Shown here: positions 1 through 21,244 of the stretch, piece by piece | Position numbering within the stretch: position 1 is the stretch's first letter | How the letters are laid out: each line of letters begins with the position of its first letter | IMG/VR virus record: IMGVR_UViG_3300025132_000252 | Coordinates: 1 to 26,034 of that record | DNA: 26,034 nt | DNA from: a virus | Strand: one strand, 5' to 3' | Translations under genes and position numbers: made by a program | Notes under the pieces: model-generated | The model's input: only the letters and a program-made list of their open reading frames with translations | The model's database searches: none | What the model was told of the DNA's origin: nothing

Positions 1-3000
1 GCGCTTGAGCTATTTCACCATGTTGAACATCTGTTTTTAATCCTCCTCTTCTATCTTGTAAATATTGAGAATTCATTATCATCGCAAAATCTTTAGAAAA
101 CTGCTCTACATTAGACAGCGCTTTAAACGCTTGTATAGGATTGTTATCTTTATAGTTAATATAGTTAACAATAGAGATCAATTGCGTAATGGTAGTTCTC
201 GAATTAAAGAACATTATAGTAGCAACAGTACCCTGTAGCCACCTATACGCTGCGCTTGTTTCTTCATCTATATTATTTCTATTAGTACTTTTACCTTTTT
301 CCATAGAAAAAAGTATATCTTCTAAAGCATCTCTATAATTTTTTCCGTATATAACTTGTAGTTTGTTTAAGTTGTCTTCATTAAATATTTCTTTTTTATT
401 GTCAATCCAGTCTTTAAAGAATATAGCTCTATTTAACTTTTCTGTAACTTCATAAACATCTCCAACTATAGTTCCTCCTGTCCAATTTTCTGAAGGTGTT
501 ACATACCCACCATCTACATTAAGTATAGCTTGTAAGTTTTCTGCAAAACCTAACAACATTCTATCGGTTTTAACTCTATCTACTAAGTTTTTTTGCTGTT
601 CTACTGTTAAACCTGGAACAGACTCACCCATTTTATCAAAAAGATATACCCTAATAGCCATATCATGTGTAAAATTCGTGCTAGGTAACTTAGCATTTAG
701 CTTTTTAGTAACCTCTTTCCATCTTAACTTAAGTTTATCAAAGTCCGCTAGTATTTTCATCCTAGCAGTATTTAAATTTATGTTAGCTTGAGTAAAAGGT
801 CTTATTAATGTTTCTCGGAAAAACTCATAGTCTTGATCTCCTTTTTTACCTTTACCTAACATAGGATACAATAAGCCTACAAAGTCTTCAGCACCAGGTG
901 GTAGATAGAAAGGAGTTAACTTTATTATTGCTTTTTTAGCTACTTGAGCATCAGCTCTACTAAATATTTTATCAGCAGGTGTTTTTGCAGTACGCTCTAA
1001 CATTTCGTTTAAACGCTCGCTCATACCTCTACTGAACTTAGCATTTTCTACTCTAGGCCCAACTGTTTGTTCAGCATCTTTTAAAGTTTGATCTGCTGCG
1101 TTAATTTTTACACTTACAGTGTTTTCACCTTGTATTTCGTATTTAGCATTTTTTAATGTAAATTGATTTGATGCCTCATCTATCCTTCTATACTCTCCAT
1201 CTTCTAATTTACCAAATTGCGGTTGACCGAAGATTGTAGCAGTTTTAAACTCTAGAGTTGTTTCTACATCAGCATCAACACTACCGCCAAGCATTTCCCA
1301 CCTTGGACTACCTGTTATTACTTGATCAATATCATAGGTAAAAGTTAATTTAACTTCTTTACCTCCATTAGCAAACTTTTTGTTATAATCAACATTTTGT
1401 TTAATTATGTTAGCGGCTTCATCTACAGGTGTATAAAATACATTTCTACCAGGTATCATATCAGATATTGCGCCTGCTAATATATTTTTAATAGAAACAG
1501 GTTTTAAATTACCTTCTAAAACTCTTTGTATATTTATTAAAACACCGTTTTTATCGTAATTTTTTACAACTGTTATTTTTGTACCTCTAATTTCAACTAA
1601 ACCACCACCTAATTTTGATGGTAAAACTTCTGTGTGAATAGATAGTTCATTAGTTATATAATCGGTAGTTACTTCATTAATGTCAGTTGATTTAACTTTT
1701 TTACCTTTTTTATATATAGTGTTTTGTTTTGTAAAATATGGAGATCCTTCAAACTGCTCTTCGTTTAAAAATAATCCGTCAATCTCGCCTTCTTTATTTT
1801 TAAAACTTCTAGCAACTACTTTTCTAGATAAGCCTTCTTGTTTTATATATTCTCCACTTTTTTTATCTTTACCACCTTTTTCATAAAATGCTGTAGTATT
1901 ATATGAATCTTGTTTTACAAGATTTTCTGACTCATCTTGATCTTTTTGGAAATCATTATAGTTAAAACTATATACTTTTCTAAAACCATCTTTATCAACT
2001 TTAGTATCTTTGTATGTTATTATACTATGCTCTTCATCCTTTATATCATAATACTTTCCTTCATTTCCGCTTCTAAAATACTTAAGTTTACCATCTATAA
2101 ATACAGCTTTAAAACCTAAATCACCTGTATAATCTTGCCAATGTCTAAAAGCTATGTCTAAGCTTTTATCATCACCAAGCCTAGCACACAGACACCAGTT
2201 ATTGAAGTTTTCACCAAAATGTGAATCTACTAGCTTTCTAAGATCCATTTGAGCTTTTTTAGTATCTGCAACATCGTATATTACTACTCTACCATCAGCA
2301 AACTCTTGTCTATTGCTAAATGTAGGTAGTGTTTCTGGATCAAGAAGAGTTTTATCAGCAGTTAGTTTTTTAAACTGATTAATTAAATCTTCTGGGTTTT
2401 TATAAGAAAAAGGATCTACTTTATTTTTTTGAGCAAGATCGGCAGCTTCAGTAACTTTATAACCATCTTCTGGCAATACAATATCACCATTTATAAGATA
2501 ATGAAAAGCTAACTTTTGCATTTTACTTCTGTTGTACACACTTTCATCTAAGCTATCAACATACTTAAATACTTGATCTATTTGATCATCATAATATGCG
2601 TCAACCTCATCAGGTCTTCTAGCTCTAAGCCTTGAGTTAAACTCTCTTCTAAGCTTTTTAGAAAACTTAATATGCACAAATGGAGATAAATCACCACCAT
2701 CTATAGCGTTATCAATGTCACGACCTGCAGATTTAGAAAATTTATGGTCGATGCTTTTATTAATAGCTCTAGTTATCTCAAGTGCTTGTGCTTCATCAAA
2801 CACTTCTTTAGTAACATCTGTTCTACCTTGTATAACTCTAGTATCTTTCAACGATTCAGGTATAGCGTCTTCAGCCATATTCTTAGCTAAATAACCAGAT
2901 AAGGCATCACGTCTTGTACCTCTAAGTCCTGATCTAACTGTCTTATTAGGATCTTTTTTACTACGAACAAATGTTGGTGGATTATAAAATCTAGCTACTT

Positions 3001-6000
3001 CTTTTTTAAAGTTTTCAATATCAACTTCTGTTTCAGGTTGGATTTTAACTCTTAAATCTACACCGGCATCAGAAAAATCTACAGCTTCTGGTGGTAGTAA
3101 ATCTAAGTCAATAGCTTTTTGAATATCAGCTTTTCTAGTTAACCTACCTATGTATTTTGTAAATATTCTCTCGTCAGCAGGTGTTTTTTTCTCAATAGCT
3201 ACTAACTCTTTAGTTTTAAGCTCTTGCAAAATAAGCAAAGCGTTATCATAAGTATTTTGCCTGTAGTTGCCTACTTGTATAAAGTTTTGAACATCTCTTC
3301 TTAGCTTTTCATAAACTTTATTTTCTATACTTTTAATAAAAGCTCTATTTTGACCTGTGTTACCAGGCTTTAATTCCTCGTTTGCAACTACATCAACTAC
3401 AATATCTCTAAATTTTTGAACTAAAGCTTCAGGTAAACCTTCGTTTTTTTCATTTTTTAATGTAGTTCTTAATATTGATCCTTTTGCCTTACCTCTTAAC
3501 TCTTCTTCTTTTTTAAATACTCTGTTTATTTCTTCTTGCAACAATGGAGCGTCTTCAAAACTTACTTGATCCTGCTCTTCAGATATAGCTTCTTGAACTT
3601 GGCTAGCAACAGCTTCGTCAGATAAACTGTCTTCAAACTTTTGTTTTGTAGCTAAGCCATCTCTAAGAACTTTGTTTAGTTTCCACTTAACGTTTTGACC
3701 TATCCAACCAGCTAAACCAAACTTACCTTGTGTTGTTTGTTTTTTATCAATATCAAAACCTTCAAAAGCTTTTTTAAGCTCAATTGCTGTTTGACTTATA
3801 AAATCTGCTTCAGAAAAACCAGGTAATTCTTTTAAACTTGATGACATCTGCTCTTTAACCATATCTTCTATGTAGCCTTTACTCCACATATCCCAATATA
3901 CTTCTTCAGCTTTACCATCAATCCACTCTTGTCTAGTATATTTCTCACCAAGCTCGTTCATCTCATCATCTCTCTGCTTAGGAGTATACTGTACAGACTT
4001 TTTAACTCTAGGTTTAGAAACAATATCTTTTTTGCCTTTAGCTTCTAGACCTTTAGCCTTAGCTCTAGAAACTGCTTTAGCCTTAAGTTTACCAAAAAGA
4101 CTATCATCTGTTATATTTTTACTATAAGTTTTTATGAAATTAAATACACTTTCTGGATTTTGAAAGTCTATATTTTTAAAACCAAGACCATACATTAAAG
4201 CATTCCAGCTACTTACGAGTTTGCTAGCATCTTTGTCACCTGGTTTTAATTTTTCTTTGTTGACTACATCGCTAAGCATCGTAAAATACTCTTCGTATCT
4301 ATCTTGATTATTTTCTGCAAATTGAACTATTCCATTTTCATCAACAAGAATTTGTCCGTTTTGAGTAAAAGCATCGTACTTAGCAGCTAATCTTTTATTT
4401 ATATCATTTACAACTTCTTTATAGCCATTATCTATTAGATACTTTCCTAAAGATTTAACAGAAGATATTAAGTTTTCTTTACCTATACCTTTTTTAAAGT
4501 TGAAAGATATTATACCATGAAGATTTTCGTGACCTATAACATTAGTGCTTTCTGTTACAGCAGAATTTATTTCGTCTATATATATATCAAACTTACCATC
4601 TTTAGCTTCATTGATAAATACTCCTTCTACATTATAAACATCGTTACCATCTTTATCTTTACTAAAAAATACATCTTTTAATTCTGGTGATTTTTCAACA
4701 AGTTTTTTAGCTTTAGCTTCATTCATGTACACTAGTCTACTATTTCTATTACTAGTGCCAATAGCTCCTTTTTGTTTTCTAATTGATTCTAAAGCCTTTA
4801 GTGCAATAGACAGATCAGTTTGACGTTTACTGTTATACTCTAAAGTTGAATTTGAAAAAAACTGTTCTGCTTTTTTGTTTATTACTTGAAGTTCTTTATA
4901 AGCTTTATCTTGTTGCTCTTTAGTATAATTGTCATTATTTATAATGTCTAAAGCTTGTTCTGCTTTATCATAGTTTTTAGCATAAGCTAATAATGTTTCG
5001 CTGTCTAAGTTATCAAAAAAGTCGTATAAATCTTCTTTATGCTTTTTCTTTTGACCTAATATTTCTTTTATTTTATTTTCAAAATCTAACTTTTCACTGT
5101 CAGTAGTCGCTTTAGCATAGGATTTTTGAGCTTCAATTAACTCATTTTCTAATTTTAAGTTAGTTTGTTTCCAATCTCTAGTTCCAAACCACTCTTGTCT
5201 TCTTCTTGTATTTAAAATGTCTTTAGCTGATATTGCTGCAGACTTTCCACCTAAAACACCACCTATTATACCGTCTTTTATAAAAGTTCTACCTAAGTTT
5301 GAAAAAGTTTTTATATCACCATAAGTCAAAGCATCAGCTGCCTCTTGCACAACTCCTGTAGCACCTTCTGTTAAACCTTCCCAACCAAAACCTTTAGCTA
5401 TAGCTTTAAAAAAAGTTCCAGTACTATTAACTAAAATATCTTTAGCTTGTTCCATTGGAATATCTTTGCCTATCTTATTTAAAATACGACCACCAAAAAA
5501 TTCCATAAAAAAATCAGAAGCACCATGTATTACAGAGTTAGTAACGACATCTCCTCTACTAATTTTATCACCAATATTCTTGTACGATAAATCTGCGCTT
5601 TCTTTTACTTCTTCGCCTAACCTTTCATATAGCTCGCGCTCAAAGTTTTCCATATAAGCGCTAGCTCCTAATAAAGCAGGTCCTACACCATAAGGTATTC
5701 TACTTATTATAACAGATGGTGCGGCGCTAAAAACATCTTGAACTAAAGCATCAGATCCTCCATCTATATCACCTTTACCATAAAGATCCATGAAGTCTAA
5801 TGGATTACCATTTTCATCTAGCTCAACATCGTATTGATATTTATCAAACCACTCTAGTACACCTTCTAGTTTAATTCTATTTGTTGGATCTAGCTTTTGC
5901 GCTTCTTCAAGTGTCAAACCTTTTTTAGCAGAATCAATTAAGTGAGCTTCGTACATAGCCCTACGTTCTTTTGGAGTAGTAAGATCATACCATCCAAATC

Positions 6001-6451
6001 TTTCAGGAACATAGTGGCCTTCTTTTCTAAGAGCAGCAGCTAAATAACCTAACGAAGCTTCCATAGGACCTTCAGTAATAAAATCTCCTATAAAAATATA
6101 CTCACCTGTTTCATAACCTTTGATTAAATTATCAGCTATAGATACAGTTCCTTCAGCAAATCTTGATATTTTATCCAATGTACCCTGTGCTAAACCTGTA
6201 ATAGGTGACTCTTTAACTTGCTCTAATTCAGCAATACCGCCCCAGCTTTTTATTCTAGGCTCTGCTTCAGCTTCAGGAGCAACTATAAACTGAGAGTTTA
6301 ACTCAATATCGTCCATAGTAGCGTTACGCTTAAAAACTTGCGCATTAAGTTGAGATATTAAAGTTTCAAAATCTACGTTTTGAGCTTTTGCAGCATATTC
6401 TAATTCTGCCTTAGTATGCTCAATACCGTTTACTATGTACTTTTCAAACAT
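1..6451 (-). CDS. Giant multi-domain phage protein with zincin-like motif, probable virion cargo (3' end outside window)
   Basis: The frame opens at ATG 6451-6449, four bases after the upstream stop, and stays open to the window edge: at least 2150 codons with no stop reached. Visible parts in order: residues 1-230 soluble; about 237-405 hydrophobic and glycine-rich (GIIGGVLGG near 395), which could contact membrane; HENLH at 641-645 with an EE pair at 720-721, the layout of a zincin metallopeptidase; about 840-1000 charged helical, with an FDI...GWIGQ segment around W916; a Trp-Cys module with W1419-C1420; and 1809-2150, a helical tail with NSRTTITQL near 2080 that resembles a family I recall from uncultured marine phages. 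Multi-domain giants beside tail genes are often injected virion proteins or polyvalent proteins; that role is inference. No DxDGD polymerase motif was noticed in the visible part. Confidence 0.9.
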   Translation of the reverse strand, partial: MFEKYIVNGIEHTKAELEYAAKAQNVDFETLISQLNAQVFKRNATMDDIELNSQFIVAPEAEAEPRIKSWGGIAELEQVKESPITGLAQGTLDKISRFAEGTVSIADNLIKGYETGEYIFIGDFITEGPMEASLGYLAAALRKEGHYVPERFGWYDLTTPKERRAMYEAHLIDSAKKGLTLEEAQKLDPTNRIKLEGVLEWFDKYQYDVELDENGNPLDFMDLYGKGDIDGGSDALVQDVFSAAPSVIISRIPYGVGPALLGASAYMENFERELYERLGEEVKESADLSYKNIGDKISRGDVVTNSVIHGASDFFMEFFGGRILNKIGKDIPMEQAKDILVNSTGTFFKAIAKGFGWEGLTEGATGVVQEAADALTYGDIKTFSNLGRTFIKDGIIGGVLGGKSAAISAKDILNTRRRQEWFGTRDWKQTNLKLENELIEAQKSYAKATTDSEKLDFENKIKEILGQKKKHKEDLYDFFDNLDSETLLAYAKNYDKAEQALDIINNDNYTKEQQDKAYKELQVINKKAEQFFSNSTLEYNSKRQTDLSIALKALESIRKQKGAIGTSNRNSRLVYMNEAKAKKLVEKSPELKDVFFSKDKDGNDVYNVEGVFINEAKDGKFDIYIDEINSAVTESTNVIGHENLHGIISFNFKKGIGKENLISSVKSLGKYLIDNGYKEVVNDINKRLAAKYDAFTQNGQILVDENGIVQFAENNQDRYEEYFTMLSDVVNKEKLKPGDKDASKLVSSWNALMYGLGFKNIDFQNPESVFNFIKTYSKNITDDSLFGKLKAKAVSRAKAKGLEAKGKKDIVSKPRVKKSVQYTPKQRDDEMNELGEKYTRQEWIDGKAEEVYWDMWSKGYIEDMVKEQMSSSLKELPGFSEADFISQTAIELKKAFEGFDIDKKQTTQGKFGLAGWIGQNVKWKLNKVLRDGLATKQKFEDSLSDEAVASQVQEAISEEQDQVSFEDAPLLQEEINRVFKKEEELRGKAKGSILRTTLKNEKNEGLPEALVQKFRDIVVDVVANEELKPGNTGQNRAFIKSIENKVYEKLRRDVQNFIQVGNYRQNTYDNALLILQELKTKELVAIEKKTPADERIFTKYIGRLTRKADIQKAIDLDLLPPEAVDFSDAGVDLRVKIQPETEVDIENFKKEVARFYNPPTFVRSKKDPNKTVRSGLRGTRRDALSGYLAKNMAEDAIPESLKDTRVIQGRTDVTKEVFDEAQALEITRAINKSIDHKFSKSAGRDIDNAIDGGDLSPFVHIKFSKKLRREFNSRLRARRPDEVDAYYDDQIDQVFKYVDSLDESVYNRSKMQKLAFHYLINGDIVLPEDGYKVTEAADLAQKNKVDPFSYKNPEDLINQFKKLTADKTLLDPETLPTFSNRQEFADGRVVIYDVADTKKAQMDLRKLVDSHFGENFNNWCLCARLGDDKSLDIAFRHWQDYTGDLGFKAVFIDGKLKYFRSGNEGKYYDIKDEEHSIITYKDTKVDKDGFRKVYSFNYNDFQKDQDESENLVKQDSYNTTAFYEKGGKDKKSGEYIKQEGLSRKVVARSFKNKEGEIDGLFLNEEQFEGSPYFTKQNTIYKKGKKVKSTDINEVTTDYITNELSIHTEVLPSKLGGGLVEIRGTKITVVKNYDKNGVLINIQRVLEGNLKPVSIKNILAGAISDMIPGRNVFYTPVDEAANIIKQNVDYNKKFANGGKEVKLTFTYDIDQVITGSPRWEMLGGSVDADVETTLEFKTATIFGQPQFGKLEDGEYRRIDEASNQFTLKNAKYEIQGENTVSVKINAADQTLKDAEQTVGPRVENAKFSRGMSERLNEMLERTAKTPADKIFSRADAQVAKKAIIKLTPFYLPPGAEDFVGLLYPMLGKGKKGDQDYEFFRETLIRPFTQANINLNTARMKILADFDKLKLRWKEVTKKLNAKLPSTNFTHDMAIRVYLFDKMGESVPGLTVEQQKNLVDRVKTDRMLLGFAENLQAILNVDGGYVTPSENWTGGTIVGDVYEVTEKLNRAIFFKDWIDNKKEIFNEDNLNKLQVIYGKNYRDALEDILFSMEKGKSTNRNNIDEETSAAYRWLQGTVATIMFFNSRTTITQLISIVNYINYKDNNPIQAFKALSNVEQFSKDFAMIMNSQYLQDRRGGLKTDVQHGEIAQA
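2012..2335 (-). other. Trp-Cys (NWC) module inside the giant protein
   Basis: Around residues 1373-1480 of the giant protein lies a compact alpha/beta-looking segment with FNNWCLCAR (W1419, C1420, C1422), followed by FRHWQDYT, GFKAVFIDGKL and YFRSGNEGKYYDI. The order WC, then short strands, then a D-G turn recalls the WC-containing module found in PcfJ-like and other large phage or conjugative-element polyvalent proteins. That resemblance is from memory and its biochemical activity is not established here. Confidence 0.4.
4262..4654 (-). other. Zincin-like metallopeptidase region inside the giant protein
   Basis: Around residues 600-730 of the giant protein the sequence reads VIGHENLHGI (HENLH at 641-645), an exact HExxH zinc-binding motif with hydrophobic residues before it. 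About 75 residues later comes DRYEEYFTMLSD (E720, E721), a plausible third zinc ligand of the kind seen in phage zincin peptidases. The motifs are seen directly. Peptidase activity is inferred, and the target could be other virion proteins or host proteins. HExxH alone occurs by chance, so the paired glutamates and the preceding beta-strand-like stretch carry much of the weight. Confidence 0.55.
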
Positions 6452-8683: not shown

Positions 8684-9046
8684 CTATTTACTACTTTCTT
8701 CTACTTGTAAACCAATACTAAACAATTCTGCTCGCTCGTTAGAATCGTTCACAAACTTAACCTCTGCATAATAACCTTTTAAAGAAGCTAAGTTTACAGC
8801 GTTATCTTTTGAAAAGAATATATAACTATTAATAGATGGTAAATTTATAGTATTAGTTACATTTACTTCTATATTGTAAGTTCCTGAAAAACCACTAACA
8901 ACTCCTAACTCAACAACGTTGTTTAAAGAGCTAGTAGTAGTAAATCCACCGAGAGTTGACGTAGAGTTAACTGTATAGACAGTATCACCAACTTGAACAC
9001 CTGTTAGTTGTGGATCTGTAGAGAAAGGTAGTAGTACAGTTGCCAT
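8684..9046 (-). CDS. Small conserved virion-type protein
   Basis: A 120-residue beta-rich protein with no signal peptide. Recognisable pieces are VGDTVYTV near residue 20, FFSKDNAVNL around 78-87, GYYAEVKFVNDS around 91-102, and the ending ELFSIGLQVEESSK. I recall the FSKDN...GYYAEV...SSK pattern as common in structural modules of uncultured marine phages, where it has no assigned function. It could be a minor capsid, decoration or tail-tip protein. It starts three bases after the nozzle gene's TAA, so it is probably coupled to that gene. An AGGA at 9056-9053 sits six bases before the ATG and is one of the few Shine-Dalgarno-like sequences in this window. Confidence 0.8.
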   Translation of the reverse strand: MATVLLPFSTDPQLTGVQVGDTVYTVNSTSTLGGFTTTSSLNNVVELGVVSGFSGTYNIEVNVTNTINLPSINSYIFFSKDNAVNLASLKGYYAEVKFVNDSNERAELFSIGLQVEESSK

Positions 9047-9049
9047 ATT

Positions 9050-12000
9050 TTATCCTATTACTAATGTTAATATAGAGAACACGTTTTGATTGCTACCGTG
9101 CGCTATTCTTAAGTTTAACTGAAACACGCTAGTACTTGGTAGTTGGCTTATTTGAATATTTAATATACCAGTTGCCGCACTAAGATTACAAGCTGCTTCA
9201 TCAGTAGAATTAAAGAAGCTTGGGAATGTTTGCGAAGGTTGATCAATTTGATACTGTTCACTAGCACTAATAAAATTAATAACACCATCAGCGCTCCCTG
9301 TTGGTCCATAAATCATAGGTATAGCCATAGTATAAACACTACCAGATGTTGTCCAAGCGCCAGCTGAAACAGAGGTTGTAAGCAATATGTTATTACAAAT
9401 TATTTGTCCAGTTGGCCCGGTAATAGCTGGTTGAGTATTGTCTATAACATTATTTTGTAAAATAGCTTGAGACAAAATACCGTCATCAAAATATACGTAT
9501 GGAGTTTCGCTAGGTTGCTCAAGTACAACGTAATCATTTGTTTCATCAGCTAAGCCAGGGGATGCTAAATGCGGTTGCTGAAGTTGTACGTCACTATGAA
9601 ATAAACTAAGACCTATATATCTTGACTGCAAGCTAAAGTTAGGCTCTAAAGTTGTAAGATTAATATTTTTGTACTCATATCCAAAACTTCCATAGCTTTG
9701 TAAGGCAATATTTGGTAAAGCTGTTCCTGTTGTTGAAAGCCAAGTAGCGTTAACAGAATTAGTAAAATTATTAGCGTCATTAGACGTATCAAAAAACGTT
9801 GCAAAAAGAGTAGGTGTAGATCCATTAGCTCGAATTTGCAGTAAGCTTGAAAAATTACCACCTAATCCTGTTAAGGTAAGAAATCCATTTGCATTAAACT
9901 GAGCTTGAGGCCTAGCTAACTGAGTAACAGTTATAGTGTCGTTAGGATTCACTGATTGTGTAGTACCACCTGGTCCAGTTGCGTTTCCAGGATATTGTGG
10001 ATTATGAGGATTAAATCCAGTAACATCGAAAGATCTATCAACAGGGAAAGTAGTTGTCCAACCACCACCACCAGGATTTAATGTAGCGTTATTTTCTTCT
10101 GCGTAAACTGTAACTTTATAATTAACTAAGTTAGAATATGAAGTTTGAAGTGGCTGTGGCTGAAGAGGATCAACGTAAGTAGGTATAAACTTTAAAAATT
10201 CAGGAGCTTGATAGTTCCAACCATTACTTCCACCAAGCTGAATAGTAGATTGTCCATTATTATTTACATCTTCGTTCCAAGGCTCATAGTCAAATTGACA
10301 CATTATATTATTGTGCTGTCCAATAGTTCCTTGAGTTCCATGATAACCAACATCGTTACTAGAAACAGAGTCATCACTTGGTATTTGTACAAAAAACTCT
10401 TTAATACCTTGAGTATGATCAAAAGTTATAGTAGCATTAGTAGGGATAGGATAATCATCAGCTGTAGCAGCATTAGATCCTTGCTCTCTAAAAACTAATG
10501 TATTAGTACCAGAGTTATAACTAGATGCTTGCTCTATTACAAATGGAGCATCACTTGGAGTAATGGTAAAATCTTCAGGATGAAAAACATTAAGATGAGC
10601 TGTTCTCAGAGCACCAGTAGCATTTGGATCAGCCACAAGAACTAAAATTGCAGTACCTGTACCTTGAGGGCTAGATAAAAATATGTTACACCAAGTTGGA
10701 GTTAATCCTGTGTCTGTATCGATAAGGCTAATTGAGCTTGTGGTAATAGAAATTGGAAATGTCTGAAACATAGCATTCCAGTTTAAACTAAGAAGAGCAT
10801 TTCCTGTCGTAATACCTATGTCAGGTATTTTGTATATTCCATTAAAGTCTGCAACCATGCCTGGCGAGTTTCCGTTTCCTTGATTAGTTGTATCGCCAAA
10901 CCAAGTAATTTGTGGGTTGCCAAAAGTATCATCCATTAGAATAGACCACTCACCTACTATTGATATTTGACCTCCAGCAGTAGAAGCGAGTTGAAGTATA
11001 GGTAATGTATCTGTTACAGTAGAAATATTATCTGAAGTTATTACTAAATCACATACCCTATCGCCGCCTGTGTTTTCAGCGAAAGAAACAGTTACAAAAC
11101 TACCACCAGTATTAGTTGGATCATGAGTAGTACTTATAACTTCAAAGTCAGTAGTTGGGCTAAAATTACTATTTGCTATAGAAGCTGTAAAAGGTCCGCA
11201 GTTGCTGTTTACAGAAATATCAATAGTTGAATTAGTAGGGCCAGTTTGTTGAGAATTGAAAGAAGTAAAAACACCATTGTTGTAAGTTGCAAAATCTAAT
11301 ACAGCTAGCTCAGTTTGTATGTCAACTAGTATTTCATTTTGATCATCAACTTGAGGCGCATTAGTTACTATTGAGTCGTAATCTATATCAACAGAGTTTA
11401 TAAGAGGACTAAAAAATGAGTTTACAAAACTATAATTACCACTTTCTCCTTGTGTTAAACTAACAATAGGACTAGCAATGCTAGCGTATGTTCCAGGAAT
11501 AATATCAAAACTTATCAATGTTCCAGAAAAAGTTTGTGGAATAGTAGCTGAAAACGTATAAACAAGCTCTGTATCTGTTTGAGAAGTTTGAGTAAATGAA
11601 GAGCCAACAACACCTAAATTACCAGGATCTACATTAAATGCTATTTGATGAGGAATAACGTTTGGAGAAAATATACCGTTATTAATAGCATCGTTGAATA
11701 CAAAGTTGCAAGTATACTGTATTGGTAGCAAAACACCTGTTACTGCACTAAGGTTTATAGTGTGTGTTAAATCACTACTTAAGCTTACGCTATTATAAAC
11801 AATACTAACTACTACATCGTTATTAGTATCGTAAGGGATTCCGCTATCAGCAAAAGTCATAGTGAGTATATCAGCAGGAAGAAGCGGTGCATTAGTGGTA
11901 AAATCAGCAGCGGCAATACCATATCCAGAAGCAGAACTTATGTTTACAGTAAGAGTGTTTAAGTTAGTAGCTAAATTAGAAGTTTGAGGAGCTTGTGATG

Positions 12001-15000
12001 TAACAGTGTTCCAACCAACAGATTGATCAAAGTTAACCAACTGTAAAGTATATAAAAATCCTAAAGTGTTAATTGTTCCAGAGCTAATAGTTGCATTTGC
12101 AGATAAATTTCCAATACCTTGAACTGAGAATTCATTAAAGTCAATATTACCTGCGGCGTTACCGTCAGTTGTATCTACTGCGTTCTCAAAAGTAGTATCT
12201 ATACCTTTAATATAATTATACCACTTACCTTCTTTTTCAATAAACTCATCAATGTCTCCCTCTTGCATGTCAGTCACTATAGATTCAACATGCCATCCAT
12301 TTCTAGCTATTTCATTATAGTACTCATTATCATTATATGTAACTCCATCAACTATTTCATCGGTAAATTTAACAACTTTAGATTGTGTACCCTCGTAGCT
12401 TAATGTTTTAAATAGCTTTACTGTAGAACTAGTTTCGCTAAATATATCTGTTATAGAAGAATTGAAATTTGATCCATAAAAATTACAATAAGTAAAACTT
12501 AAATTATCTGGATGATGTATATATTGTAATCCGTTTTTAAAAGTATAATAAGAGTTAGATATAGTTACAGCACTTTCATAAATGAAAGATTTAAAACTAG
12601 TCCAACCTTTAACATTTTCTTTATAACCTAAGTTGTAAACATTTTTAGAGTTATTAGGATCTATGATTTCATGTATTACTACATTGTACTCATTTTTCTT
12701 TCCGTCATAACTACCAACAATAGCTTGAGATTGCTTTAAGTGGTCATTAAAAAAGTCTTTCATACCAGCTTCTGAGATTGGCGTTATTCCATCTCTTGAA
12801 AGCCTACACACAGCTCCTCTTTTAGCATCAGCAAAATATATTCTATATTCTTCTGCAGCAAAAGACTCTGGGTTTGTTGATATACCATAATCACCTAAGT
12901 AAGGTATTGCTTGACCTAAAACGTTTTTAGAAGAAACAGTTTGTATATTACCATCGGCATTAAATAAAGCATCTTTACCACTAGATAAAACTTTTAATAC
13001 TTTGTTTTCACAAAAAACAACTACATCACCATCTCTAGTAAAAAGTTTTTGAATACTACCGTACTCATCATTTATTTTTTTAATAATATCTTCTTGTTGT
13101 ATAAACTCATTAAAACCACTACCAATAGACTTATTGTACAGCTCAGAAAATATTATTGAGTTAGGTTTTCTAACTTCTCTATAATCCGGGTTCTGCATAG
13201 ACTGCTCAAAACCGCTCAATTTTCCACTTGTAGTATACCTATAAATAGGGTCTCCATTAAAATCATCTTTAATAGTGTCAGACTCTACTCCGTTTCTAAA
13301 AGATATTACATTCCACCAATTAAGACCTATAGGTAGGCAAATATTTCCACCTAATATATTGTTTTGGTAATGAGTATGTTGTTTAACATATAGTAAATCA
13401 CCAACAACGTCTATAACTTTTGCAGACGTAAATCCTTTGATAGGATGTATAAAAGAAACAATAGATCCAGTTATTTGACCTGGAAGAACAGAAGGTGTAT
13501 CACTAAGTGTTATAACAACTAATCCATTAGAGTTTAATGCATGATTGTTTATGTTAGCTATTCCAGAAGTCTTAGCACCTCTAACATCTAGTACTGTTAA
13601 ATCAAGATCGTTGAAGTCTCCAATATCTGTGCCAGTATAATTATTAGCAGCGTTATATGTAATTGAAGGTAGTATTTTAACACGATCAGCAAAATTAATA
13701 TAGTGATAACACGTTTCGTCTGTTAGTCTAAGTGGATATGCTCTAGAAGCTTCGTGAAAAAGACCTAAGTCTATCGCTCTTTTTTTACGTAATTCAAAAA
13801 CTGCTCCATTAAATATTTCTTCACCAGGAGTTATAACATTACCAATCTGATCATCAAAGTCTGAATCAGCTTCAATTTTAACAAAGAACTTACCATTAAC
13901 ATCTTCAAAAGTAGCGTTTAATAAAGTAAATCCGTTTATAGAAAAACCATTACCTGTACCATCATCTGCAGCATTATCTACAATGTCTAATATCTTATAC
14001 TTAGCCGTGTCTGAATGCACTGGTACATTACTACCGTGTGCTTTTTTAAGAATTAACTCATCACCTATTTCAGGCTTACTAGCATCACTGCTATTAAAAC
14101 TTAACCAAGCGTTGCTAACAGCTCCAAAAGTAGTTATATCATCATTTAAATCAGCTGGATAAGCACTACACATAGTCATGTTGTAGTATTTTGGAGCTAT
14201 CTCTTTGATGTAAAGTTTAAAATAATCAGCCCAGACTGGTGGGTTGTTTTTTATTTCGGCTACCAATGTATTTATTCCATCACTAGCTGATTTTGGTATA
14301 CTAATAATATTTTTTTCATCAACTAAAACAGTACTTTCTCTACCGTAGTAGTCTCCATACACAACTCCTAGTTGATAAGATTGATCTGATTTTATAGATT
14401 TACCAGGAAAATTTTGTGGTAAAATTTCACCAGAAGAAACAGTTTCTAGACTAACGATGTTAAAACTAGCTGTACTTCCACTTATTGGGTTTACAGAAAC
14501 TCTTATTTCGTCAACTCTATTGCCACTCATGTTTCTAGACTTAACGCTAGTATTATATTTAATTTTTACATAAAATGAATCTCCGGCTTCAGCAGCTACA
14601 TTGTTAGAGTTTAAACTACGAACACCCATTTGGATGTTATATGTGTTTTTATTGTCGTTATCTGTTTTTTCTTGCTCAGTTGTGTCTAATATAACATTAC
14701 TTCCGTTTGCTTTTCTATGAACAAGTTCAGCTCTAAATCCAACTATACACTTATCAGCTTTTTCATCAGGCACTATTTCAAACTGAGGAGCAAGCTCGGC
14801 GTTTACATTAAAAAACTGAGTGCTACCACCAGGAACAATAGGAACTTCGTATTGATAAGAAACACTATTCCAGTTTGCTTGAGTGTGATTAAAGTTAACT
14901 CTAACATAGTTACCACTATCAACATTCGACATGATAGGCGTTGTAGCTTGAATATTTGCTAATATAGGACAAGTAGACTCTAAAAAATTAGTCTGTAGAA

Positions 15001-17209
15001 AATTACCGTTAGATGTAGTATTACCTAAATGTCTTTGGTAGGTTGTAAAAGGAGAGTTGTTTAAAGAACCACATCTTGGAAAAGAATTATTATTTATATT
15101 AACACTGTTAGCTCCAGCAGCAGTAACTATACCAACGGAATCAGCTACGCCACCTGGAATACTTTTATAAGAATTTTCATGATTAGGAACTATTTCGCCA
15201 CCAGCATAGTCTTTTAAATCATAATTCTCTACATAGTTTCCATATAGAACTCTTGAAGATGATATTTCTTGAGCCAAAGCTTTTCTAGGAACCGCGTCAA
15301 AAGGTCTTACTTGCTGTTTAGTTGGCAAAGTTGTTCCAAAAATAGAAGAGTCTACAGTTATTTTTCCACTGTTTTTACCACCTAGCGTACTGAAAAACTC
15401 AAGGTCATTTCTTTTAACACTTCTAAATATAACAGGATTTTCAGAAGCAGAAGTCTTATATATAAGATCTATAGATTCAACTTGATCAGGTGTTGATTGC
15501 TCTACAAAGTCGTAAACAGTTATTTCTTCTATAGAGCTAGCCATACCGTTATTTAAGCCAGTAGTATTATTATAAGAGTATGTTCTAGGTAAAAAAACAG
15601 CTTGAGAGTAGGGTGCTAAGTTTGATTTTTCACCGTTGTCGTAAACATATCTATAAGAAAAGAAAATAAAAGCATCTTCTTCTAAGATATTTTTACTCTT
15701 TAACTCTACAAACCAATTTTCAGCTGGAGGAGCATCAGTAACATTTATTTCAATTTGTTGATCACCACTAGAATCTAAAGGAAAATATCCAACATCAATA
15801 TCTGTTATATACAACGTCCAACTATCTACATTAATGTTTGGTAATACGTACGCAGAAGTACTACTAGGATAAACTTGCCCTACAGCTATAGTTCCAGTAC
15901 TTTGACCTGTTAATATTACTTCAGCGCCATTTTCCCATTGCATAAAAACAGAATCACCATTGTCATCTACTGTTTCAATCTCAATATAGTTTACTCCTCC
16001 TGTACCTACAGTAGATATAGTAACATTACCAGTAGTAGCAGGAGCTTGTGAATTAAAAGGATAATAAAGAGGAAAAGGAGAACCTCCATCTTGTAATGCA
16101 GTGCAAAAAGTATTAGTACCACCAGATCTTGTTTCTATAACTTTAGGAGCTAATCTTGGAGCTTTTCTTATTGTCGTGATGTGTTCTTCTTTAAATTGAA
16201 CTGCTGAATTATTAGATGTTGAAACTACTGAATGTTTTTGTATATCAGCATCAACAGTACCTGTAAAAATACTAGTTTTAGAATTAAAATATTCTAAATT
16301 TATTTTTTTAGGTTCGTTCCTATTGTCTGTATAGAAAAGTATATTATCTATATAGTTTATACCTGTTATTATATTGTTAAAAGGAGTTTTTGAAGAAGGA
16401 GTATTTTCAGTATTTAACTCTGTTTCTGTAGATCCATTTAAAAAGTTTAATATTCTTTTAGAAGTATATCTCCAAACAAAATTAAAGCTAGAGTGACTGT
16501 TTGCTGTCCAAGTTAAAGAGTTTACTGGTATTGTTGTAAAAAGTTTTACAAAAGCAGGATCAGGATCGTAATGTATGTCTGTTATTATAACTTCATCTCC
16601 AGCTGCATAAGCAGACATTCCGGTAACAGGATTGTAAATTTCAACTCTCATACCTTTTCTAATCCCTTTAGGACCATACACAGGTGTGCCAAGGAAATTA
16701 GTATAAATTTCTGTTTCAAAATTTCCAGCAGGAATTTCACCTACAGTTGGTTGGTCGCCTTTAGCTTGATGTCTAACTTCAAAAACATCTACAACTATAG
16801 GAGTTGTTATTCCAGACTCTCTATTTTTATCAATATCAAACTTAGTAATAACATCAGATCTAATACCTACATCAATAGCCGCGCCATAACCAACGTCACT
16901 TACTAGTTTTTCTTCAAAATCACTAGCTAAATGTATAAAATTAAAAATACAATCAATAGACTCTTCAGCATTAGATCCAACTGTTATTGCATTTTGTGAA
17001 AACGATTGATTCATAAATGCATTACCATTGTAATCTAAATCTGTAACTTTTACATTACCTTTAGCATTTTGTGCAGCACCTGTATTAGAATCTTCAGAAG
17101 TAGATATTTCTATATTTAAAGCATCTCGATATTCGCCATTAGGTACTAGACGTTCATCAAGATCTTTATTCATTCGACCTTTTAGAAAATTATGCTTTAA
17201 CTCTGGCAT
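9050..17209 (-). CDS. Tail nozzle/stabilisation protein with C-terminal BACON-like domain array
   Basis: A 2719-residue protein, the longest complete gene here. The N-terminus carries the signature KGRMNKDLDERLVPNGEYRD (residues 10-29) followed by ALNIE, a pattern I associate with tail stabilisation (muzzle/nozzle) proteins of crAss-like and uncultured marine phages. The core runs to about residue 1690 and ends in FIEKEGKWYNYIKG. This part should form the distal tail tube below the ring proteins. The remaining thousand residues are Thr/Ser/Asn/Gly-rich beta domains, several ending in a strand with a Gln-Pro/Ala motif as BACON domains do (Q2073, Q2227, Q2430, Q2565, Q2657). They probably face outward and may bind host glycans (inference). 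The start lies three bases after the upstream TAG. The core assignment is firm; the function of the C-terminal extension is not. Confidence 0.88.
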   Translation of the reverse strand: MPELKHNFLKGRMNKDLDERLVPNGEYRDALNIEISTSEDSNTGAAQNAKGNVKVTDLDYNGNAFMNQSFSQNAITVGSNAEESIDCIFNFIHLASDFEEKLVSDVGYGAAIDVGIRSDVITKFDIDKNRESGITTPIVVDVFEVRHQAKGDQPTVGEIPAGNFETEIYTNFLGTPVYGPKGIRKGMRVEIYNPVTGMSAYAAGDEVIITDIHYDPDPAFVKLFTTIPVNSLTWTANSHSSFNFVWRYTSKRILNFLNGSTETELNTENTPSSKTPFNNIITGINYIDNILFYTDNRNEPKKINLEYFNSKTSIFTGTVDADIQKHSVVSTSNNSAVQFKEEHITTIRKAPRLAPKVIETRSGGTNTFCTALQDGGSPFPLYYPFNSQAPATTGNVTISTVGTGGVNYIEIETVDDNGDSVFMQWENGAEVILTGQSTGTIAVGQVYPSSTSAYVLPNINVDSWTLYITDIDVGYFPLDSSGDQQIEINVTDAPPAENWFVELKSKNILEEDAFIFFSYRYVYDNGEKSNLAPYSQAVFLPRTYSYNNTTGLNNGMASSIEEITVYDFVEQSTPDQVESIDLIYKTSASENPVIFRSVKRNDLEFFSTLGGKNSGKITVDSSIFGTTLPTKQQVRPFDAVPRKALAQEISSSRVLYGNYVENYDLKDYAGGEIVPNHENSYKSIPGGVADSVGIVTAAGANSVNINNNSFPRCGSLNNSPFTTYQRHLGNTTSNGNFLQTNFLESTCPILANIQATTPIMSNVDSGNYVRVNFNHTQANWNSVSYQYEVPIVPGGSTQFFNVNAELAPQFEIVPDEKADKCIVGFRAELVHRKANGSNVILDTTEQEKTDNDNKNTYNIQMGVRSLNSNNVAAEAGDSFYVKIKYNTSVKSRNMSGNRVDEIRVSVNPISGSTASFNIVSLETVSSGEILPQNFPGKSIKSDQSYQLGVVYGDYYGRESTVLVDEKNIISIPKSASDGINTLVAEIKNNPPVWADYFKLYIKEIAPKYYNMTMCSAYPADLNDDITTFGAVSNAWLSFNSSDASKPEIGDELILKKAHGSNVPVHSDTAKYKILDIVDNAADDGTGNGFSINGFTLLNATFEDVNGKFFVKIEADSDFDDQIGNVITPGEEIFNGAVFELRKKRAIDLGLFHEASRAYPLRLTDETCYHYINFADRVKILPSITYNAANNYTGTDIGDFNDLDLTVLDVRGAKTSGIANINNHALNSNGLVVITLSDTPSVLPGQITGSIVSFIHPIKGFTSAKVIDVVGDLLYVKQHTHYQNNILGGNICLPIGLNWWNVISFRNGVESDTIKDDFNGDPIYRYTTSGKLSGFEQSMQNPDYREVRKPNSIIFSELYNKSIGSGFNEFIQQEDIIKKINDEYGSIQKLFTRDGDVVVFCENKVLKVLSSGKDALFNADGNIQTVSSKNVLGQAIPYLGDYGISTNPESFAAEEYRIYFADAKRGAVCRLSRDGITPISEAGMKDFFNDHLKQSQAIVGSYDGKKNEYNVVIHEIIDPNNSKNVYNLGYKENVKGWTSFKSFIYESAVTISNSYYTFKNGLQYIHHPDNLSFTYCNFYGSNFNSSITDIFSETSSTVKLFKTLSYEGTQSKVVKFTDEIVDGVTYNDNEYYNEIARNGWHVESIVTDMQEGDIDEFIEKEGKWYNYIKGIDTTFENAVDTTDGNAAGNIDFNEFSVQGIGNLSANATISSGTINTLGFLYTLQLVNFDQSVGWNTVTSQAPQTSNLATNLNTLTVNISSASGYGIAAADFTTNAPLLPADILTMTFADSGIPYDTNNDVVVSIVYNSVSLSSDLTHTINLSAVTGVLLPIQYTCNFVFNDAINNGIFSPNVIPHQIAFNVDPGNLGVVGSSFTQTSQTDTELVYTFSATIPQTFSGTLISFDIIPGTYASIASPIVSLTQGESGNYSFVNSFFSPLINSVDIDYDSIVTNAPQVDDQNEILVDIQTELAVLDFATYNNGVFTSFNSQQTGPTNSTIDISVNSNCGPFTASIANSNFSPTTDFEVISTTHDPTNTGGSFVTVSFAENTGGDRVCDLVITSDNISTVTDTLPILQLASTAGGQISIVGEWSILMDDTFGNPQITWFGDTTNQGNGNSPGMVADFNGIYKIPDIGITTGNALLSLNWNAMFQTFPISITTSSISLIDTDTGLTPTWCNIFLSSPQGTGTAILVLVADPNATGALRTAHLNVFHPEDFTITPSDAPFVIEQASSYNSGTNTLVFREQGSNAATADDYPIPTNATITFDHTQGIKEFFVQIPSDDSVSSNDVGYHGTQGTIGQHNNIMCQFDYEPWNEDVNNNGQSTIQLGGSNGWNYQAPEFLKFIPTYVDPLQPQPLQTSYSNLVNYKVTVYAEENNATLNPGGGGWTTTFPVDRSFDVTGFNPHNPQYPGNATGPGGTTQSVNPNDTITVTQLARPQAQFNANGFLTLTGLGGNFSSLLQIRANGSTPTLFATFFDTSNDANNFTNSVNATWLSTTGTALPNIALQSYGSFGYEYKNINLTTLEPNFSLQSRYIGLSLFHSDVQLQQPHLASPGLADETNDYVVLEQPSETPYVYFDDGILSQAILQNNVIDNTQPAITGPTGQIICNNILLTTSVSAGAWTTSGSVYTMAIPMIYGPTGSADGVINFISASEQYQIDQPSQTFPSFFNSTDEAACNLSAATGILNIQISQLPSTSVFQLNLRIAHGSNQNVFSILTLVIG
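9233..11242 (-). repeat. Array of divergent BACON/Ig-like domains at the C-terminus of the nozzle protein
   Basis: Four units share the BACON pattern of a Trp or loop, then N/D plus Arg, then a strand ending in Q followed by A, L or P. Unit A (about 1990-2075) has AENTGGDR (R2051) and PILQLAS. Unit B (2150-2229) has TPTWCN (W2173), DPNATGALR (R2202) and FVIEQAS. Unit C (2350-2432) has YAEENN, VDR (R2392) and ITVTQLA. Unit D (2480-2567) has ATWLSTTG (W2490), QSRYIGL (R2530) and VVLEQPS. A fifth, unit E (2580-2659), has GAWTTSG and YQIDQPS but no N..R element. The units are too diverged to be DNA repeats. Boundaries are estimates from the motifs. Confidence 0.6.
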
Positions 17210-19768: not shown

Positions 19769-21244
19769 TTAGTTCATCAACATGAAGTTGTTAGCTCCTT
19801 GTGTGATTAAACATCTTTCAGATAAGTAGTGAACTTGCATTACGTCATCTCCGATAGTTGCAGCACCAACAGAACCAGTGATCCAAGATTTCATCTTACG
19901 ATCATCAGTTTGTGAAGCACGGTAACGTACGTGTAAGAAAGGACGCTTAATGTTTCTACCTAACATTTCATCATAAACAGATGAAGTACCAGCAGGAATA
20001 ACAACTCCGCGGATGTTAGTAACAGTATCATTAAGAGCACCACGAGTTCCAGCATCGTTCAAATATTTGAAGTCAGACTTGTAGAAGTCATAAGAACCTC
20101 TACGGAATCCAGAGAATCCTAAGTTCAACGCCATATCTTCGTCGTTTTCAAATACTCCGTAAGAAGTACCACCAGCACCGTAAGAGTTCATAGACGCTAG
20201 CATATCATCCATAGCTAAGCTAGTTGAACGATTTACAAACATCATGTTTTCTTCGATAGCACCGTTTTGATCAAACACAGCTAAGATAGCATCAAATTCA
20301 GCTAAATCAGTAGCAGCGTTAACACCAGTAATACCAGTAGTTTGGTGACCTCTAGCTTCGATTGCAGCGAATAAACCTTCAGTACCAGCATCAATACCAG
20401 TAGTAGAAGCAGCTAATCCTAAACCAGTGTTCTCAACAACAGACGCAGCGGCAGCGAACTCAGACTCCATCATAGACATTTCAAGGTAGTCAGCAAAACG
20501 TGAACGAGTGTCACCTTCAGCTTTTAAATACCATAAATATCCGTTTTGTCCAGCTTCACCAGCAACTTCAATCCAACCAATTTGAGCAGTATCAGATCCA
20601 GCAACCTCGAAGAAGTCTTTTAGGATGATGTGCTTGTTTTGGTGAGAAACAAAGTTTGGAGAGTTAGCTGAAGTACGACCAGCAGAACCTTTAGCAAATT
20701 CAGAACCGTAAACTAAGATACGGTATGCTCCAGCACCTGCGCTATCAGAGAAACCTGCAGTATCAAAGTTAGCAGCACCATAAGGTAGAATCTCTAAGTT
20801 GTTGTCAGCAGCATTAACTTGGTTAACATAACCTCTCAATGTAAGAGAAGCGTTAGAAACTAAAACTGTGTCACCAACACGGATACCGTGAGTACCAGCA
20901 GCAATAGCGTTTCCATCTACGTCGTTAATAACTGTAAATCTGTTGTCAGAAGCATCGTCGTTACCACCTACAGCATCTTCACATGTTGCAGTGTATGCTA
21001 AGTGTAAACGTCCTTGCTCAGACCAAACAACTCTATCACTCATTGATGGTTCTTCTGCTCCAACTTGAGCTAAGAAACCTGAAATTGTTCTTTTACCGTA
21101 AACCTCAGCTTCTTTTTCCATAAGGTCTGGTAAGTACTGCTGTGCCCAACCTTCAGTTGCAGCAGTTGTAAAATCGATATAGTTTGTCGCTAGCGTCACT
21201 TGTCTTGGAGCCGCGTCTATACCATTTGCACTTGTAATTGCCAT
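19769..21244 (-). CDS. Major capsid protein (HK97-fold)
   Basis: A 491-residue acidic to neutral protein with no signal peptide. The N-terminal region (residues 25-75) has DFTTAATEGWAQQYLPDLME and then EEPSMSDRVVWSEQGRLHL. The C-terminal fifth reads FLHVRYRASQTDDRKMKSW and ends in LSERCLITQGANNF, a pattern I recall from capsid proteins of crAss-like and marine Bacteroidota phages. A beta-rich insertion (roughly 85-190) has GIRVGDTVLVSNASL, like an insertion domain exposed on the shell. Position after the scaffold gene supports the call. Arginine codons here are mostly CGT/CGC rather than AGA (about 14 of 23 by eye), consistent with high expression. The leader is AATTAATATAAAA directly before the ATG, with no Shine-Dalgarno sequence. 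A strong terminator follows the gene. Confidence 0.9.
   Translation of the reverse strand: MAITSANGIDAAPRQVTLATNYIDFTTAATEGWAQQYLPDLMEKEAEVYGKRTISGFLAQVGAEEPSMSDRVVWSEQGRLHLAYTATCEDAVGGNDDASDNRFTVINDVDGNAIAAGTHGIRVGDTVLVSNASLTLRGYVNQVNAADNNLEILPYGAANFDTAGFSDSAGAGAYRILVYGSEFAKGSAGRTSANSPNFVSHQNKHIILKDFFEVAGSDTAQIGWIEVAGEAGQNGYLWYLKAEGDTRSRFADYLEMSMMESEFAAAASVVENTGLGLAASTTGIDAGTEGLFAAIEARGHQTTGITGVNAATDLAEFDAILAVFDQNGAIEENMMFVNRSTSLAMDDMLASMNSYGAGGTSYGVFENDEDMALNLGFSGFRRGSYDFYKSDFKYLNDAGTRGALNDTVTNIRGVVIPAGTSSVYDEMLGRNIKRPFLHVRYRASQTDDRKMKSWITGSVGAATIGDDVMQVHYLSERCLITQGANNFMLMN

Follow-up and report, generated by a model that had tools for sequence, protein, structure and literature searches.

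Tandem BACON-type domains fused to the muzzle protein of a crAss-like phage, ahead of a separately encoded C-terminal domain

The window analysed here is a 26-kb virus record in IMG/VR (IMGVR_UViG_3300025132_000252, 26,034 nucleotides in full). More than 8 kb of its minus strand is taken up by a single open reading frame (ORF), within which a first-pass annotation had described an array of BACON-like domains fused to a tail nozzle protein; the stretch then singled out, 9233-11242, corresponds to residues 1990-2659 of this 2719-residue product. The features of the locus, with the evidence used to delimit them, are as follows.

9050..17209, minus strand: muzzle (tail nozzle) ORF, 2719 aa, with a built-in array of domains at its C-terminal end (PHROG 14478, crAss_MUZ_C, synteny)
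12191..17209, minus strand: muzzle core, residues 1-1673 (alignment with the muzzles of relatives)
12107..12148, minus strand: junction motif NIDFNEFSVQGIG, residues 1688-1701 (extensions diverge between phages past here)
11456..12064, minus strand: leading all-beta, Ig-like-looking domains, about residues 1716-1918, ahead of the BACON units (model, alignment)
10982..11302, minus strand: BACON-type unit 1, about residues 1970-2076, with R2051 and Q2073 (leave-out HMM; L002 counterpart matches Pfam BACON)
10517..10975, minus strand: BACON-type unit 2, about residues 2079-2231, with W2173, R2202 and Q2227 (leave-out HMM; structure match)
9914..10510, minus strand: putative BACON-type unit 3, with a long insertion, about residues 2234-2432, with R2392 and Q2430 (alignment to relatives)
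9503..9907, minus strand: putative BACON-type unit 4, about residues 2435-2569, with W2490, R2530 and Q2565 (L006 counterpart; model)
9053..9502, minus strand: terminal beta domain, probable degenerate unit 5, residues 2570-2719 (L087 alignment; model)
8684..9046, minus strand: muzzle C-terminal domain, a separate 120-aa gene that starts 3 nt past the muzzle stop (homology to the ends of one-piece muzzles)

The long ORF was identified as the muzzle from its match to PHROG 14478 (E 1.4e-102) together with a weaker one, under the threshold, to crAss_MUZ_C, the Pfam profile for the C-terminal domain of crassvirus muzzles (21.1 bits, E 4e-4; cut-off 27). Its relatives pass that cut-off (Calle_1, 65.0 bits; elemoF, 65.9; L061, 41.8; L009, 38.0) or, in the case of L087, just reach it (27.0 bits), and the earlier call of a tail nozzle protein is upheld. 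Upstream are found a portal gene (22481-24916) and then, nearer the muzzle, a capsid-type gene (19769-21244), an order that matches Cellulophaga phage Calle_1, Flavobacterium phage elemoF and, in part, Cellulophaga phage phi18:3. Homology extends along the core, with 83% identity to L002 and 28% each to Calle_1, elemoF and phi18:3 over residues 1-1690, and this homology and the kept gene order together place the ORF among crassvirus muzzles. The muzzle profile was the only match when Pfam was run on the window protein alone, and phmmer found no match to it in the PDB. The relatives found in genome collections sit mostly in records of Flavobacteriales and other Bacteroidetes, including isolates of Flavobacterium, Myroides, Allomuricauda and Wenyingzhuangia, and the host of the window phage is therefore likely to be a member of the Bacteroidota. 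A further frame of at least 2150 aa (2-6451, minus strand), without a clear match in Pfam, runs off the end of the window.

The core ends near residue 1673, within the segment KEGKWYNYIKG in which its end had first been placed, and the thousand or so residues expected after it proved to be about 1030. Muzzles encoded in one piece and carrying no array are 1324-1539 aa long and end 118-149 residues past the same point. Just beyond it lies the junction motif, in which F, Q and G each recur in 90% or more of the 30 long extensions compared; short muzzles stop soon past it. A profile of the core gave one chance match in the PDB, and a deeper profile (33 rows) gave none.

The product of the small ORF at 8684-9046 aligns with the last 115 or so residues of the one-piece muzzles of Calle_1, elemoF, L061 and L075, with an invariant G-Y, an E and a final S, and it is 97% identical to its counterpart in L002 and 84% to that in L006. 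By this homology it is the muzzle's own C-terminal domain, and the array lies between the core and that domain. The first-pass annotation was right to place the array in the nozzle ORF itself; its picture was incomplete in that the array is inserted ahead of a C-terminal domain, at a junction where many other modules also occur.

A separate C-terminal domain is the rule among relatives. It was detectable at 67 loci (L086, a second copy of L006, was left out), and at 58 of these it is an ORF of its own, either 12-33 nt past a long extension (12 loci, the window included) or more than 1 kb downstream (46 loci), nearly always with one to four intervening ORFs; only at the remaining nine does it lie within the ORF of the core. 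Stop-codon readthrough joining the array to the C-terminal domain was considered and rejected, the in-frame layout of the window and L002 being absent from L006, L008 and L009. In those three loci the stop codon shares bases with the next start, as TAATG, and the frame is not that of the window, so that it is separate translation that is conserved. Profiles of the C-terminal domain and of the core did not find gp44, the muzzle of PhicrAss001, in the PhicrAss001 genome. By eye, the last 32 or so residues of gp44 (L122:4491-4880; RIRNTWAYIKLGMNTPNTYRTEFHDAIIHYFA) resemble the strands with which the split C-terminal domain ends, a tentative likeness that the profile did not pick up.

Evidence that the extension is built of BACON-type units comes largely from its homologues. 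The window sequence itself has no match to Pfam BACON (PF13004) at E-values up to 10, and we therefore call its units BACON-type rather than members of the family; the missing match reflects the limit of detection for a diverged sequence. Among homologous extensions, that of L087 matches PF13004 over four stretches (E 3.3e-12, 46.6 bits, over the cut-off of 25), and sub-threshold matches were obtained for L094 (4.4e-5, 23.8 bits), L019 (2.6e-4, 21.4 bits), the 42% identical extension of L006 (3.1e-4, 21.1 bits) and the 72% identical orthologue in L002 (1.4e-3, 19.0 bits), with weaker ones for L091 (6.8e-3) and L009 (8.2e-3). The Pfam search proposed with the first annotation thus failed on the window and succeeded on the homologous extensions of L087, L006 and L002. 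BACON_2 (PF19190) gave a single weak match, in L094 (3.2e-3). The best stretch of the L002 match is the counterpart of unit 1, and the counterparts of unit 2 in L006 and L087 also match Pfam BACON.

An HMM of the unit was built from L087, L009, L008, L094 and L098, leaving out the window, L002 and L006. It found the whole window ORF at E 7.7e-7, a search in which none of 1,995 shuffled frames reached even E 10. Scored singly, unit 2 obtained 23.6 bits, a score reached by 0 of 964 shuffles, unit 1 8.2 bits (1 of 964), unit 3 4.5 bits (5 of 964) and unit 4 3.6 bits (13 of 964), the L006 counterpart of unit 4 reaching 11.8 bits (0 of 964). From these scores units 1 and 2 are firmly BACON-type, and units 3 and 4, weak alone, are probably so by alignment to relatives, unit 3 aligning with clear units of L008 and L009. 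Unit 5 (2570-2719) aligns with the last L087 unit, a clear one that the HMM detects, and is probably a degenerate unit of the same type. Of the four segments and weaker fifth unit first proposed, then, two are secure, two lean on their relatives and the fifth is probable; all ten residues named as marking the pattern are correctly placed. The N-x-(S/T)-G..R element and the final strand ending in Q recur in tandem, clearly in units 1 and 2 and in degenerate form in units 3-5. The extension is 21-24% identical to those of L087, L008, L009, L094 and L098, with the Q-ending strands in register.

Alignments were needed to find these relatives, because a single-sequence scan of viral contigs with the extension gave no match; single-protein tblastn of the array against phages likewise found nothing for either the window or L087. 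A profile of the array matched only an Ig-like domain in the PDB (3d33, E 0.75). The leading domains (about 1716-1918), which are matched by more relatives than is the remainder of the array, are all beta in the model, at pLDDT 52-87.

The model of the extension as a whole is nearly all-beta and of low confidence (mean pLDDT 52). Within it, unit 2 (residues 408-557 of the model) matches the N-terminal BACON domain of Bacteroides ovatus GH5A (3zmr_A, residues 42-129) with a Z-score of 8.4 and an rmsd of 2.5 Å over 84 residues at 16% identity; this rmsd is the lowest among the 50 matches listed, and the Z-score is tied with those of other Ig-like sandwiches. In a library of viral models the first match and five more of the best 25 bear BACON names. 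A second model, of residues 2233-2719, has a beta sandwich for unit 4 (pLDDT mostly 55-82) and another at the terminus, where unit 5 is all-beta and its last 100 residues have pLDDT mostly 54-84. Units 3-5 matched generic Ig and cadherin folds only, showing no preference; BACON was absent from that listing, which excludes nothing. The extension did not model as one non-Ig fold, nor were the profile matches of its homologues confined to the nozzle family, the two outcomes that had been named in advance as telling against BACON.

A tree built from 84 muzzle cores groups every BACON-bearing locus in one clade of 15 rows (support 100/98). The array is fused to the muzzle in ten of these and encoded by a separate ORF in four (L007, L019, L096 and L097), which fall in three places within the clade; the fifteenth, L099, is cut by a contig end. 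The simplest reading is that the BACON module was probably gained once and its state of fusion then changed at least three times. Full-length array identity between the window and L002 is 72%, and between the window and L006 42%; the corresponding figures for the conserved region of the core are 90% and 67%. The array is thus the fastest-changing part of the protein, and the separated C-terminal domain is among the slowest.

The comparison with related phages proposed in the first-pass annotation showed the extension to be variable. Where it is part of the muzzle ORF its length is anything from 0 to 1,601 aa, and such extensions carry BACON, Big_9/cadherin, PKD, DUF285, He_PIG or Cys-rich CTDxxAxNYxPxAxxDDGSC repeats. 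Of the ORFs that intervene between core and C-terminal domain elsewhere, at least ten have Big_9 or cadherin-like domains and one has DUF285 (1.3e-242). Because so many unlike modules occur there, the junction of the core and the C-terminal domain is an insertion slot, filled either by fusion or by separate genes. For a large group of crAss-related Bacteroidota phages we lean, on balance, towards a general scheme in which the C-terminal domain is a clip-on subunit and the junction a docking slot at which unrelated adhesion modules are swapped, and repeatedly fused and split, so that the ejection gate bears a changeable host-contact part.

The muzzle of PhicrAss001 is a hexamer that acts as gatekeeper and is made up of ring-joining, propeller, two Ig-like and crass domains; its tip is formed by the crass-fold insertion, its C-terminus follows the propeller part of the chain, and its length variation has been placed in the crass and IG2 insertions (PMC10172136). 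By the profile of relatives and by gene order near the portal and capsid, PhicrAss001 gp44 (PF25729/PF25731) and the window muzzle belong to the same tail-end gatekeeper family. The protein from PhicrAss001, however, is about 1370 aa long, against 2719 in the window, and stops 38 residues past PF25729; its C-terminal end is unsplit, and no C-terminal array contributes to its length variation.

We think it probable that a crAss-like phage muzzle has here taken up a host-contact module, made of the leading beta domains and about five BACON-type domains, between its core and its C-terminal domain. Contact with the host surface is the best-supported function of the array, which evolves fast, resembles surface domains of Bacteroidota and is replaced by other modules in other phages; glycan binding is a candidate role, one that is disputed for the BACON family. 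The core would comprise the ring-joining, propeller and crass parts, followed by a rod of the leading and BACON-type domains and then the stop codon, and translation from the following start codon would yield the C-terminal domain as a small protein of its own, which presumably docks back on the core. A hexamer like that of PhicrAss001 could have six such rods around the tail end, next to the C-terminus. Given the layout of the PhicrAss001 muzzle, in which the crass-fold insertion makes the tip and the C-terminus comes after the propeller, the array may be attached at the flank of the muzzle, not at the end of the tube. Displayed outward, the rods might touch a polysaccharide, the S-layer or an outer-membrane protein of a Bacteroidota host, a contact that would concentrate or orient the particle before the muzzle gate opens.

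The array could instead be a passive spacer or shield, its domains binding nothing and serving to stiffen or lengthen the muzzle, bridge the capsule or protect the tail end. This we regard as unlikely but as deserving real weight, because the BACON domain of BoGH5A bound none of the substrates tested and has been seen as a membrane-bound spacer (PMC9853417, PMC11216935). That domain, which the model of unit 2 matches, is a single N-terminal spacer of a lipoprotein enzyme; in the window the polypeptide ends with the array, leaving no further binding head to be held out. The great differences in sequence and length (0-1601 aa) among the modules in the slot would suit a role in length, whereas two features are those expected of receptor-facing parts: from phage to phage the slot also holds cadherin-like, PKD, DUF285 or Cys-rich modules, and no part of the protein is less conserved than the array. 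We consider it very improbable that the extension is a generic Ig- or cadherin-like tail decoration resembling BACON by chance: the window alone lacks a BACON match, and units 3-5 fit Ig and cadherin folds indifferently, but homologous ORFs score far over the PF13004 cut-off, a unit model built without the window finds it, and unit 2 fits a solved BACON domain. An artefact of assembly or annotation, fusing a muzzle gene to a separate adhesin gene such as really follows the muzzle in L007, L019, L096 and L097, is ruled out by the intact fused ORF in the independent contigs L002, L006, L087, L008, L009, L091, L093, L094 and L098, with closely similar gene junctions wherever these were inspected.

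Tandem BACON ORFs near predicted tail genes are already known from crAss-like gut phages, for which binding to the Bacteroides surface was proposed (PMC6949934; de Jonge et al. 2019). The window resembles those systems in having tandem BACON-type units in a tail gene block; there, however, the units are ORFs near the tail genes of gut lineages, whereas here they are fused to the muzzle of a phage with flavophage relatives. The literature searched, mostly papers outside subscription, held no report of BACON domains fused to a muzzle, of a split muzzle C-terminal domain or of module swapping at the junction.

Cellulophaga phage phi18:3 (Pachyviridae) also has its muzzle in two pieces, gp114, which bears an extension, and gp115, which includes the C-terminal domain. 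Its split falls inside the last conserved part of the core, and the gp114 module is, by eye, cadherin/Big_9-like and not BACON. Both products are annotated as virion proteins by MS/MS, which supports the view that a split muzzle can be assembled. At this locus (L005, 8010-13574) gp114 and gp115 have an apparent short overlap of the core profile, and gp115 consists of the last part of the core and the C-terminal domain.

One protein here links the crassvirus gatekeeper with BACON arrays. Should the array touch the host, the signal and the gate would be on one chain, and the trigger of the gatekeeper could be tested in flavophages already in culture, phi18:3 among them. The split domain and the swapping of modules also offer a simple way to spot host-contact modules in uncultured crAss-like phages, namely by reading the sequence between the muzzle core and the C-terminal domain.

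Other loci of the set show further arrangements. In L007 (6838-15134) the break in the muzzle falls within the last conserved stretch of the core, and it is the second piece that carries the array; the first ORF stops at 11974-11976 and the next starts at 11976 in a different frame. The extensions of L014 (14056-17226) and L023 (14992-17022) consist of Cys-rich repeats of the form GCTDPxATNYxPxATxDDGSC, that of L014 having no Pfam match, and the extension of L055 (11080-12276) has a PKD-like stretch and DUF285 repeats (3.4e-26). In L020 (14713-18084) extension residues 986-1122 form a Hint/intein-type end (PT-HINT, 1.3e-9; Intein_splicing, 2.7e-6), which finishes two residues before the stop and may cleave or splice the tail of the muzzle.
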